Source: Bryobacteraceae bacterium (GTDB lineage: Bacteria > Acidobacteriota > Terriglobia > Bryobacterales > Bryobacteraceae). From it: a DNA stretch of 64,000 nucleotides. The DNA lies in assembly GCA_026129905.1 (NCBI GenBank), contig JAHCHE010000003.1, forward strand, positions 310,001 through 374,000, in the 5' to 3' direction. The position numbers were made by a program, and so were the translations under genes. Under the pieces are notes generated by a model that saw only the letters and a program-made list of their open reading frames with translations, was not told the origin of the DNA and searched no databases. Shown here piece after piece: positions 52,982 to 57,348 of this stretch; the stretch's first letter is position 1, and the number at the start of each line of letters is the position of its first letter.

Positions 52982-53171
52982 GCGCACGCGGACTTCGGCG
53001 CTGGAGGCGACAACTCTTGAAGGCGCCCTGGGGCCCTGTTGACGACCGCGGCCGGTTGGGGACTTTCCTTGCGGGCCGCGGCCATTTTTGTCCACAGCGA
53101 GCCGGGTGAGCCGGGGTGAGCCGCAGGCGACTGGAAACGCCGGGGCGGCCTGTGTTATGGATGGTTGCGCC

Positions 53172-55136
53172 ATGAGGAAGTGGAGCGCGGTTGTTCTTCT
53201 GGCCGCGGCGGCGTGCGCGCCGGCGGCGGGCCAGCGGCAGTGGTGGATGGAGGAGCCGGTCCGCCTGATTCAAACGAACCTGCGCGAGAGCGACACGTCG
53301 CTCGATCCCCAGCGGCTCGTGCGGCAACTCGAGGAGTTCCGGGCCAACACGCTGCTGTTCGGCATGGGCGGCATCGTGGCTCATTACCCGACCGAGGTCG
53401 AGTTCCACTATCGCAGCGCCGCGCTGCCGGCGGATCGCGACACGTTCGGCGACGTTATGAAAGCAGCCCACGCGCGCCGCATCCGCGTCATCGGCCGGTT
53501 CGATTTCAGCAAGACGCAGAAGCCCGCCTACGACGCGCATCCCGACTGGTTCTTCCAGGGCACGGACGGCCGCCCGGCCATCTACAACGGGCTGTACTCC
53601 ACCTGCATCAACGGCGGCTACTATCGCGAGCACATCTTCAAGATCCTTTCCGAGGCGCTCACCCGGTACGAGGTGGACGGGCTGTTCTTCAACATGTTCG
53701 GAAATCCGCGGTCGGACTACAGCGGCAATCGCATGGGGCCGTGCCACTGCGCAAGCTGCAAGCGCATTTACCGCGAGCGCTACGGGCGCGACCTCCCGGA
53801 AGACGACGGCGACCCGCAGTACCGCGCGTTCATGGACCAGTGCGCGCGCGACGTGGCCGGCGAGATCGGCAAGCTGATCCGCAAGCTGCGGCCGGAGGCC
53901 GCGTTCAACACCTACATTCACGAACACGTCACCGGCATCATGTCGGAGTCGAACACGTCGGTGACCCGGCCGCTGCCGCTGTGGCTCTATTCGGCGAGCG
54001 ACAACGTCAATTACGCGCGCGGCTCCGAGCCGGAGAAGATGGCGTTCAACCTGTCGATGAGCTTCATCGACTATGCGTGGCGCTTCGCGGCCGTTCCGCC
54101 GAACGAGATCCGCGTCCGGCTGGCCCAGGCGATGGCGCACGGCGGCGCGTTGTGCCAGAACATGCACGGCACGATGGACCAGGAGGACCGCACGTTCCTC
54201 AACGCCGCCCGGCCGCTGTTCGCCTGGCACGCGGAGCATGAGCAACTGTACGCGGGGCAGGAGAACGCCGGGCGCGTGATGCTGATCGGCCCTCGCGACA
54301 ACGGGTACCGCGGCATGTTCCGCCTGTTGAGCGAGCGGCACATTCCTTTCGTCGCCGCGAGCAATGCGCGGATGCTGGCGGCTCGGCCGCGCGACTACGA
54401 CCTGGCGATCACGCCGGGACCTCCGCCGGCGGAGCTGGAAGCGTGGGTACGCGATGGAGGCCGGCTGCTGGTCACCGGTCCGCGGCCACCCTTCGGCGCG
54501 CCGGCGCCGGTGAAGCGCTGGGAAAACGTCAGCGGCTATTTCCGGGTTCGCGACCGTTCCCTGTTCCCGTCGCTGAAAGAGACTGATGTGGTGTTCCTCT
54601 ACGGCGACTACGCCGAACCGCCGCCGCAGCCGAAGCCGGCGCTGACCTTGATTCCACCGGCGATGTTCGGCCCGCCGGAGAAAGTGTGGGCGGACAAGGT
54701 GGAGACGGACAAGCCCGGTCTGCTCATCCAGGATCTTGGTAAGGGAAAGATCGCGTACCTGCCGTGGGACGCGGCCGGGCTCTACTACCGCTACAGCTCC
54801 CACGCTCACTCCGCGCTGCTGTCTGACCTGATTGACCATCTGCTTCCGTCCGGACGACAGTTGACGACGAACGCGCACCCGCTGGTGGAGATCACCGTGA
54901 TGCGCCAGCCGAAGCGCAACCGCACGCTGGTGCATTTCGTGAATCTCTCCGGCCACTCACAGACGGCCTACTTCGATCCGGTTCCGATGCGAGGGATTGA
55001 AGTGGAACTGGCGGCGGACTTCCGCCGGGCGCGGCTGGCACGGGACGGGCGAGCGCTGCCGGTGAAGCGGGAAGGGCGCGCCGGAACGTTCACGCTTCTG
55101 GAACTCGGCGGTTACGAGGTGGTGGAACTGGAGTAG
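53172..55136 (+). CDS. Secreted GHL6-like glycoside hydrolase (alpha-galactosidase/beta-galactosidase trimerisation architecture)
   Basis: 654 residues from ATG 53172 with a leader (VVLLAAAACAPAAGQ). A TIM-barrel domain at about residues 25-345 resembles hypothetical glycosyl hydrolase 6 (TNLRESDTSLDPQRLVRQLE, RVIGRFDFSKTQKP, VDGLFFNMFGNPRSDYSG). A second domain at about 350-500 looks like a beta-galactosidase trimerisation (glutamine amidotransferase-like) domain, followed by a beta-sandwich. Likely acts on plant or microbial glycans outside the cell. Its last 112 bases are duplicated at 55955-56070. Confidence 0.7.
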   Translation: MRKWSAVVLLAAAACAPAAGQRQWWMEEPVRLIQTNLRESDTSLDPQRLVRQLEEFRANTLLFGMGGIVAHYPTEVEFHYRSAALPADRDTFGDVMKAAHARRIRVIGRFDFSKTQKPAYDAHPDWFFQGTDGRPAIYNGLYSTCINGGYYREHIFKILSEALTRYEVDGLFFNMFGNPRSDYSGNRMGPCHCASCKRIYRERYGRDLPEDDGDPQYRAFMDQCARDVAGEIGKLIRKLRPEAAFNTYIHEHVTGIMSESNTSVTRPLPLWLYSASDNVNYARGSEPEKMAFNLSMSFIDYAWRFAAVPPNEIRVRLAQAMAHGGALCQNMHGTMDQEDRTFLNAARPLFAWHAEHEQLYAGQENAGRVMLIGPRDNGYRGMFRLLSERHIPFVAASNARMLAARPRDYDLAITPGPPPAELEAWVRDGGRLLVTGPRPPFGAPAPVKRWENVSGYFRVRDRSLFPSLKETDVVFLYGDYAEPPPQPKPALTLIPPAMFGPPEKVWADKVETDKPGLLIQDLGKGKIAYLPWDAAGLYYRYSSHAHSALLSDLIDHLLPSGRQLTTNAHPLVEITVMRQPKRNRTLVHFVNLSGHSQTAYFDPVPMRGIEVELAADFRRARLARDGRALPVKREGRAGTFTLLELGGYEVVELE

Positions 55137-55140
55137 CTCA
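55025..55140. repeat. 116-bp direct repeat, copy 1 (3' end of GHL6-like gene)
   Basis: Identical at 115 of 116 positions to 55955-56070; the single mismatch is T at 55099 against C at 56029. It covers the final 37 codons and stop of the glycoside hydrolase and four more bases. The two copies are 930 bases apart and flank the gene at 55158-55898. Confidence 0.95.
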
Positions 55141-55157
55141 AAATAGCAGCCGGCAGT

Positions 55158-55898
55158 TTATCGTTGTCTGCCCTTCCAGTACCGCTCTTCGACAATCTTG
55201 ACTCCCGCGGATCCGAAGAACGGATGACCTGGGTACTTCGCCGCATACGCTGCCTCAGCCTGTGAAGGAGACACTTCAATGTAGCCTTGGGGAATCTCGA
55301 ACATAGAATCCGGCGGCTCCACTTCCTCCACCTTTATAGCTGTGTGCTGACTATAGGAACCTCGACTCGACGTAATTTTCTTCTGGAGAGGATAGCAGTC
55401 CAGGTCAGGCGCGATCCACTTTTCCGATGTGACGTTGGTTCCAGCCTGTCTCACCTGTCTCACCTCGCGCCCCAGCATCTCGTCAGCCGGCGTGTAAGCG
55501 AGCGATCCTTCGCCATGCCGCAAGCCATTGCTGGCGCACGTTTCCTGGTGCTCAAGCTCCTCCGAAATATCGGCTGGGTAGAAAGTGATCGCCGATTTGG
55601 TGAAGGGTTCCAGGACGACCACCCGCCGCTTCTGGAGATCGATGATCTCCGCCGTATACCCCTTCTCACCATGAGGCGACGTAGTTTCCCGCAGGTTCAC
55701 GAATGAGCCGTCTCCGCGGCGCGCGAAAACGTTGTTCTGAACGGCAGACGCGGCCTTCGCCGATCTACCGAAATGAAGGACCTGCTCGTGAATGACAAGC
55801 GACTTCCACTGCTTCTGCGTAAGCGGAGACTGAGAATACGTTTGATATCCCAGCATGGTTGCCATGCCGAATACCCCGAGTGTGACTACAATCCGCAT
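55158..55898 (-). CDS. Exported protein of unknown function in a duplicated segment
   Basis: 246 residues from ATG 55898 (a GTG at 55910 is possible). A leader-like hydrophobic N-terminus (VTLGVFGMATMLGYQ) precedes a beta-rich chain with EKGYTAEIIDLQKRRVVVLE and a C-terminal MFEIPQGYIEVSPSQAEAAY. No family recognised. It lies, on the opposite strand to the gene it interrupts, entirely between two copies of a 116-bp direct repeat, so it was probably inserted after the host gene. Confidence 0.7.
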   Translation of the reverse strand: MRIVVTLGVFGMATMLGYQTYSQSPLTQKQWKSLVIHEQVLHFGRSAKAASAVQNNVFARRGDGSFVNLRETTSPHGEKGYTAEIIDLQKRRVVVLEPFTKSAITFYPADISEELEHQETCASNGLRHGEGSLAYTPADEMLGREVRQVRQAGTNVTSEKWIAPDLDCYPLQKKITSSRGSYSQHTAIKVEEVEPPDSMFEIPQGYIEVSPSQAEAAYAAKYPGHPFFGSAGVKIVEERYWKGRQR

Positions 55899-55954
55899 GC
55901 TTTCGGACACCTCGCTTTATTGTAAGCCTTGATTTCAGCGGCCTCGGTTCTGCC

Positions 55955-56070
55955 CCGGGCGCGGCTGGCACGGGACGGGCGAGCGCTGCCGGTGAAGCGG
56001 GAAGGGCGCGCCGGAACGTTCACGCTTCCGGAACTCGGCGGTTACGAGGTGGTGGAACTGGAGTAGCTCA
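55955..56070. repeat. 116-bp direct repeat, copy 2
   Basis: Second copy of 55025-55140. It ends within the stop codon of the next, leftward gene, whose TCA is at 56068-56070. This tie suggests the copy keeps the original junction between the glycoside hydrolase and the enolase-superfamily gene, and that the unknown gene was added between the copies. Confidence 0.95.
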
Positions 56071-57348
56071 GCTCCATTCCACGCGGGACTGTTTCTCGAT
56101 CGCGGATTCGTCCAACTCGATGCCGAAGCCGGGGCGCTCCGGCAGCGCGATCTTGCCGTGCTCCGGACGCGGGACGTTCTTCTCGAACTGGTAATACGAG
56201 CGCATCTTGGTGATGAGGTATTCCACCAGCGGGCAGGTCATCGGCGACTGGCTGGCGACGACGTGCAGCGCGGCGTGCAGGCTGTGGCCATGCGGGATCA
56301 CCTGCGCGTCGAACAGCGAAGCGACCGCGCAGATGCGGACCAGTTCGGTGACGCCGCCGCACCATTCCGGGTCGGCTTGCACCACGCTGACGGCGCCGGC
56401 TTTCAGGTTGTCGTGCACTTCCCAGCGGTTGTAGAAATGCTCGCCGCTGGCCACCGGCACGGACGTGCTGCGGCGAAGCTGGGCGAAGGCTTCGATCTTG
56501 TCGGGCGCGAACGCTTCCTCAATCCAGCGCGGCCGGTATTGCTCCACCTGCTTTGCCCAGGCGATGGCGTAATCGAGGTTCCAGCCCATGAAGGCGTCGA
56601 ACATGATGTCGACATCGTCGCCCAGCGACTCGCGGAGGTTACGTACCAGCTCGACGTTTTTCTTCAAGCCTTCGGCGCCGTCGCCCGGACCGTAGGCGAT
56701 GAACCATTTCTGGTGGACGAAACCCTGGTTCTTCAGCTCGACGCACTTGCGGCGAACGGGCTCCGGCTCGACGCTGAAGCCGAGGCAGCTTCCATACGCC
56801 TGAACCGCCGGGCGCGTCGGGCCGCCGAGCAGGCGGTAGACGGGCGCCTTGAAGTAGCGGCCCCGCAGGTCCCACAAGGCGTTGTCGACGGCGCTGATGC
56901 CCATCATGAAATGCCCACGCCGCGCATGGCGGTTCAGGCGGGCCATTTTGTCCCAGAGCGCTTCGCCGGCGAGGGGATCCTGGCCGATGAGGAACGGGCG
57001 CAACTGGCGGTCCACCACGAACGCGGCTTCGAAGTCGATCGGGCCGTAGAGGCCTTCCAGTCCGCTGTCCGTCTTGATCCTCAGGTACAGCGCGCTGGTC
57101 CGCGCGGTTTCCTTCGTGGGATTGGGATCGTCGCGGTAGGGCTTGGGGCGATGCTCGTCGTAGATGTGAAGGGGCTGCGCCTGGTGCTGGCGGTCGACGC
57201 CGCGCAGCAGTTCCCTTTGTCCCTCAAGGCGCCACATTTCCACGGCGCTGATCTTCAGCTTGTCCGAAGGAGACGGCCGCGCGGTCTGGGCCAGGGCCGC
57301 CGGGGCGGATGCCGCCGCGAGGGAGGAGAAGAAACTTCGCCGGCGCAT
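56068..57348 (-). CDS. Tat-exported enolase-superfamily enzyme (mandelate racemase group)
   Basis: 426 residues with a Tat leader (MRRRSFFSSLAAASAPAALAQ). Enolase-superfamily site: a catalytic-type Lys in GFVHQKWFIAYG, then Asp in IMFDAFMGWN, Glu in WIEEAFAPD, Glu in PVASGEHFYN, and His in VIPHGHSLH. Members process sugar acids and mandelate-like compounds. The second such enzyme in the window. Convergent with the GHL6-like gene. Confidence 0.85.
   Translation of the reverse strand: MRRRSFFSSLAAASAPAALAQTARPSPSDKLKISAVEMWRLEGQRELLRGVDRQHQAQPLHIYDEHRPKPYRDDPNPTKETARTSALYLRIKTDSGLEGLYGPIDFEAAFVVDRQLRPFLIGQDPLAGEALWDKMARLNRHARRGHFMMGISAVDNALWDLRGRYFKAPVYRLLGGPTRPAVQAYGSCLGFSVEPEPVRRKCVELKNQGFVHQKWFIAYGPGDGAEGLKKNVELVRNLRESLGDDVDIMFDAFMGWNLDYAIAWAKQVEQYRPRWIEEAFAPDKIEAFAQLRRSTSVPVASGEHFYNRWEVHDNLKAGAVSVVQADPEWCGGVTELVRICAVASLFDAQVIPHGHSLHAALHVVASQSPMTCPLVEYLITKMRSYYQFEKNVPRPEHGKIALPERPGFGIELDESAIEKQSRVEWS

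Follow-up and report, generated by a model that had tools for sequence, protein, structure and literature searches.

In the window, by which we mean the whole 64-kb stretch of DNA that was analysed, two convergent resident genes are separated by an inserted gene and a long direct repeat. Gene X (53088..55136, plus strand) is an open reading frame of 682 aa from a TTG start, with a possible later start near 53172, and encodes a glycoside-hydrolase-like protein with a GHL6 domain. Gene Y (56068..57348, minus strand) encodes a dehydratase-like protein of the mandelate racemase/enolase superfamily. The repeat consists of two copies of 116 bp (55025-55140 and 55955-56070) that start 930 bp apart and are identical at 115 of 116 positions, the sole mismatch being T at 55099 versus C at 56029. 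No other direct repeat of at least 40 bp was reported in the window. Copy 1 (R1, 55025..55140, plus strand) comprises the final 112 nt of X, including its stop codon, plus 4 nt. Copy 2 (R2, 55955..56070, plus strand) is an orphan 3' end of X and ends on the stop codon of Y. Neither resident gene is truncated, because the duplicated stretch includes the stop of X and its last bases are the stop of Y.

The insert between the copies measures 814 bp (55141..55954) and looks foreign; its GC content is 0.56 compared to 0.65 in the 5-kb flanks. It contains one plausible gene of 246 aa (55158..55898, minus strand) with a hydrophobic N-terminus; its only other long open reading frame overlaps this gene on the opposite strand. 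An earlier sequence-only reading had described a 116-bp duplication with one mismatch around an opposite-strand gene, and had noted that copy 2 joins straight into the stop of the next gene. Both descriptions were confirmed, the next gene being the convergent dehydratase-like gene.

The same reading had proposed that copy 2 preserves the old junction and that relatives with the un-inserted locus should be sought. One such relative was found, an uncultured Bryobacteraceae bacterium of another genus (contig CALKXJ010000006.1, G055:C6, which appears as loci L037/L215). Its X ortholog, 73 percent identical, runs straight into convergent Y with no insert. Among the 72 named loci around Y homologues, X lies beside Y only in L215, so the empty state rests on this one relative. 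Since this relative from a different genus lacks the insert at the junction, the insert is probably the derived state. Furthermore, residue 671 of X is Pro in all 17 ortholog rows (16 genomes), whereas the in-frame copy 1 has Leu (CTG) and the orphan copy 2 keeps a Pro codon at the matching position. Copy 2 is the copy that retains both the old X-Y junction and the old base, in line with the earlier proposal.

The inserted gene belongs to an undescribed family. Its protein had no match in Pfam or PHROGs and one NCBIfam match far below the cut-off. Its predicted structure was too poor for use (mean pLDDT 40.9), and comparison with solved structures returned one match only, at chance level. A single-sequence scan of genome contigs with the inserted gene gave no relative, and in a phylum sample of 396 genomes at E <= 1e-20 only its own genome matched. 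Among 101 related genomes, 14 encode relatives of about 25-35 percent identity, and a family profile at E <= 1e-10 matched 50 of a class-wide sample of 399 genomes, the own genome being included in both counts. Features conserved in the family include the hydrophobic N-terminus and two motifs, DGS and, close to the C-terminus, ERSPS. A short Cys-rich open reading frame of roughly 90-140 aa lies upstream of the family gene in L003, L079, and L081.

The flanks of the family members were compared to those of the resident genes in 79 loci with about 1.5 kb of flanking sequence. Direct repeats of at least 60 bp on both sides were present at 5 of 21 family-member loci versus 0 of 58 loci of hydrolase or dehydratase homologues, some of which cover the same place twice (P ~0.0009, calculated by hand). 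The five were the own locus (L004), L075, L079, L080, and L081. The sequence-only reading had suggested a search for the inserted gene elsewhere with similar flanks: in L075, L080, and L081, from three other genomes, the repeated sequence comes from the 3' end of an adjacent gene and the layout is the same. L079, overlapped by L083, may be a tandem cassette duplication.

The recurrence of such structures was surveyed in 2.60 Mb of the 8.57-Mb genome of this soil bacterium (about 30 percent, window included), counting repeats of at least 40 bp and 80 percent identity, 300-12000 bp apart, with no frame open across the gap. The own genome yielded 29 direct-repeat loci versus 1 inverted. Non-acidobacterial controls of 1.21 Mb yielded 2 direct and 0 inverted loci (S. 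meliloti pSymB, 700 kb, 2 direct; 26 other loci, 358 kb, 0; E. coli, 150 kb, 0). The 46 loci counted as acidobacterial (764 kb) yielded 4 direct and 1 inverted; they include L228 and L250, labelled Planctomycetota, and L239, labelled Acidimicrobiia, which were counted here because of close matches. The acidobacterial density is below that of the own genome, and therefore the excess may be partly genome-specific or may come from the conserved region sampled.

At 16 of the 29 own loci, assigned by eye, the 3' part of an intact resident gene is copied beyond the insert; gene calls came from a simple, self-written codon-score finder. In these assigned cases the repeats range from 41 to 1749 bp and the targets differ. 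The other 13 loci were left out of the codon test, a selection also made by eye, for lack of an assignable intact target, for copies of a 5' end (C1:101326), for an island-like place, or for a contig edge. Besides C1:101326, they are C12:26686, C12:278779, C15:4503, C23:53011, C23:55357, C23:56865, C23:126632, C3:131367, C45:985, C6:3040, C6:33689, and C8:1. The GC content of the insert is below that of its flanks at 27 of 29 loci, with a mean difference of -0.039 compared to a minimum of -0.010 in 200 random draws. The cargo at other loci is varied and includes an M48 peptidase, a PemK-like toxin, and a phosphatase. At locus c1, the repeat does not reach the stop codon of the gene, ending 233 nt before it. 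A composite at C10:102448-106601 (L170:2448-6601) carries, in order, gene X1, cargo A, a selD-like 3'-end fragment, an X1 3'-end fragment, a PemK/MazF-like toxin gene, and selD; it gives the impression that two alleles, each with its own cargo, were joined. These recurrent scars are pointing to repeated gene acquisition without a recognisable transposon.

The recurrence also bears on the assembly itself. An assembly artefact or a strain chimera could be suspected in a metagenome-type assembly of 71 contigs with 4.38 percent contamination, the more so as the locus is known from the assembly alone. However, the two copies differ by one base, the cargo is a complete gene from a family of the lineage, and similar structures with copy divergences of 1 to 17 percent recur here and in independent assemblies. 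Since the structure recurs in the genome and around cargo relatives elsewhere, a local assembly artefact becomes less likely, and we consider this explanation very improbable.

The positions of the repeat boundaries were compared to the predicted stop codons. Of 58 insert-side boundaries, 5 are no more than 6 nt away from a predicted stop (expected 1.16, P 0.0075), and of 58 far boundaries, 3 are (expected 0.90, P 0.06). A predicted stop lies inside a copy at 13 of 29 loci (expected 7.2, P 0.003), and a start at 10 of 29 (expected 7.5). Such duplications leave the gene intact, so survival bias can explain part of the stop excess.

Copying of resident 3' ends above the random level is what would be expected if the cargo were a small mobile element with an enzyme that duplicates a gene's 3' end or brings it along, as islands integrating at gene ends do, and the recurrence of the cargo family inside such repeats also agrees with this. 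However, the cargo protein here has no transposase, integrase, or phage-family match, the cargo at other loci is varied, and both the targets and the repeat lengths differ. The 20-nt ends of 20 inserts showed no common ends and no terminal inverted repeats. Site-specific or transposon insertion is therefore very unlikely. At the window locus, a transposon or integrase was rejected, with no family match for the cargo and no shared termini. Terminal inverted repeats and a short target duplication of fixed length (here 116 bp, and variable over the class), as expected of transposons and IS elements, are absent, and neither their transposase nor the integrase expected of a site-specific integrative element was matched in the insert. 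The earlier statement that this is not a normal transposon target-site duplication therefore holds, with no shared termini, no terminal inverted repeats, and no transposase match in Pfam, NCBIfam, or PHROG.

The differences between intact and orphan copies were pooled over the assigned cases. They fall 59/55/188 on codon positions 1/2/3, and 173 are synonymous and 129 are not; these totals include the c23cY row, and c10, c23c, and c45a each enter as two pieces. The third-position share was 0.62 compared to 0.43-0.50 in simulations of a free orphan beside a constrained gene, and the synonymous share was 0.57 compared to 0.39-0.47. Free decay of the orphan was rejected as a full account of the class, since the codon shares exceed the simulation. 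The excess is uneven: it is strong at c45b, c2, c23b, L080, and c12a, and absent at c45a, c45c, c10a, and c5, which resemble free orphan decay. At c23c the repeat is a mosaic, with 0 differences in the X part and 38 in the Y part. This pattern suggests that some of the repeat pairs derive from two functional alleles, as would be the case if incoming DNA came with a gene end of its own. Later allele exchange at X could be an alternative source of the synonymous excess. The codon argument is inapplicable at the window locus because its one copy difference is nonsynonymous.

We favour homology-anchored one-sided integration, with one homologous exchange and one illegitimate closure, and would give it about an even chance. 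The ancestral order would have been X running into convergent Y, and the derived order X with R1, the 814-bp insert, R2, and Y. The incoming DNA, presumably from a near relative, would have included the cargo attached to the 3' end of an X allele, and a single homologous recombination with resident X, probably a single crossover, would have followed. The other end would have been closed illegitimately: the fragment may have become a circle that integrated by a single crossover, or its free end may have been joined to the sister copy of X. The structure with its empty junction, the 29 direct-repeat loci versus 1 inverted, the third-position and synonymous excess, the boundaries near stops, and the c23c mosaic speak for this route, and the one ComEC match in the genome was counted for it. 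In E. coli, according to the available part of PMC3240628, a shortened circle and lacZ underwent unintended single crossovers, from which duplications of 109 to 950 bp resulted.

Several results speak against the homology route. Repeats of 41-116 bp are short for a homologous crossover, the far boundaries also lean towards stops, and several cases resemble free orphan decay. The 4 nt shared past the stop of X end exactly on the stop of Y, and this fits an insertion into the X-Y junction itself. For the inserted gene, the donor arrangement (X beside the cargo with no orphan) was not found in 101 genomes, of which the nearest relatives compared belong to other genera. Cargo adjoining X was likewise not seen for c45b among the matches listed from 61 genomes, nor in the c10 relatives among the matches listed; in seven genomes checked, again among the matches listed, X1 and selD lie on different contigs.

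The strongest competing explanation is that DNA was captured at a staggered break: two nicks about 116 nt apart would have opened the X-Y junction, the overhangs would have been filled, and a stray fragment would have been ligated by Ku-dependent end joining. DNA capture at staggered double-strand breaks is known mainly from eukaryotes. It leaves an unrelated insert flanked by a tandem target copy, so that the exact layout is obtained without donor homology, and it implies that R1 and R2 were identical at birth; the copies here are 99 percent identical and no sequence is common to the insert ends. In copy 1 the derived state is a C to T change, like single-stranded DNA damage, although this is a weak argument. 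Three Ku-family matches over the cut-off, two of them adjacent, lie at C45:247566-248883 and C42:2917-3456, and therefore end joining is available; Ku was matched in 1 of 14 control genomes. However, staggered-break capture does not predict the third-position excess, the c23c mosaic, or the repeat ends near stops; it expects no donor homology and leaves the class-wide codon-position bias unexplained. S. meliloti has several Ku genes, and the 2 loci in 700 kb of its pSymB also count against this rival. We regard it as a serious possibility, with a somewhat less than even chance. At the window locus it is inseparable from the homology route because there is one nonsynonymous difference and a boundary exactly on the stop of Y.

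Two copies of one stretch would likewise be left if the X-Y junction had been duplicated in tandem and the middle then replaced. However, this scenario requires two events; the ancestral junction is preserved exactly in R2-Y, and the sequence between the copies showed no trace of a longer duplication. We consider it highly improbable. Of the mechanisms offered by the sequence-only reading, repair-type or homology-based insertion remains the best reading, and tandem duplication with replacement is not needed.

The pattern resembles the "insertion with long target duplication" (ILTD) named in Helicobacter (Nobusato, Uchiyama, Ohashi and Kobayashi 2000, Gene 259:99, as relayed in the available parts of PMC1643837, PMC4978471, PMC3031569, and PMC3874152). 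As those excerpts describe it, ILTD has no recognisable element, long and variable direct target copies of the order of 100 bp, and an empty allele in a relative. Here the direct copies are long and variable (116 bp, and 41 to 1749 bp at the other assigned cases), and an empty allele exists in one relative of another genus. In Helicobacter pylori, the cargo in the same excerpts consists mostly of restriction-modification genes, which were frequent in the original reports and are not strictly required. In contrast, the cargo here is an undescribed gene, with unrelated accessory genes at other loci. Restriction-modification cargo was rejected, with no Pfam or NCBIfam match above the cut-off here and none among six cargo proteins tested from other loci. 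The usual target also differs from the ILTD reports, being the 3' part of a resident gene in at least 16 cases, assigned by eye, in about 30 percent of the genome. Our literature search found no report of an ILTD-like pattern in Acidobacteria, or of the pattern under other wording. The available part of the Solibacter genome paper (PMC3174227) describes small-scale duplications and phage and plasmid transfer, and does not mention "direct repeat".

Homology-facilitated illegitimate recombination (HFIR) is similar in having one homologous and one illegitimate junction, as set out in the available part of PMC3240628. Classical HFIR inserts with a deletion, whereas a duplication with both neighbours intact is seen here. 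Microhomology of 3-10 bp at the illegitimate junction is a further feature of HFIR. Another is donor homology at one end. The class-wide codon bias points towards donor alleles; no donor was found for the inserted gene in 101 genomes, nor for c45b among the matches listed from 61 genomes. A Campbell-type single crossover starts from a circular donor with the shared segment and leaves that segment in direct orientation on both sides of the insert, which is the same layout as here.

The entry of single genes into chromosomes without a transposon, phage, or plasmid is mostly unexplained. Long target duplications are birth scars of such entries, in which the old junction is kept, so that the anatomy of the event is visible. 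With repeated scars and several kinds of cargo in one genome, the question can be tested by analysing alleles and codons and through scar counts in close strains; the scars also bear on how large acidobacterial genomes gain genes. A much broader and speculative proposal, which we consider rather unlikely, is that members of this acidobacterial lineage obtain accessory genes through a pathway that is general and element-free, in which DNA docks on resident 3' ends and leaves a copy of 40-500 bp, and which acts frequently enough to be a main source of single-gene additions. If this were true, the left-behind copies would be a readable record of the alleles and donors involved.

Two further structures were observed. 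In another acidobacterial assembly (L284:6255-7306, JAPKYX010000265.1), a homologue of the same dehydratase is adjacent to an insert of 916 bp enclosed by 69-bp direct repeats. In the own genome, 51-bp direct repeats at C12:26686-35287 surround 8.5 kb with several short genes, and this could be an integrative element.
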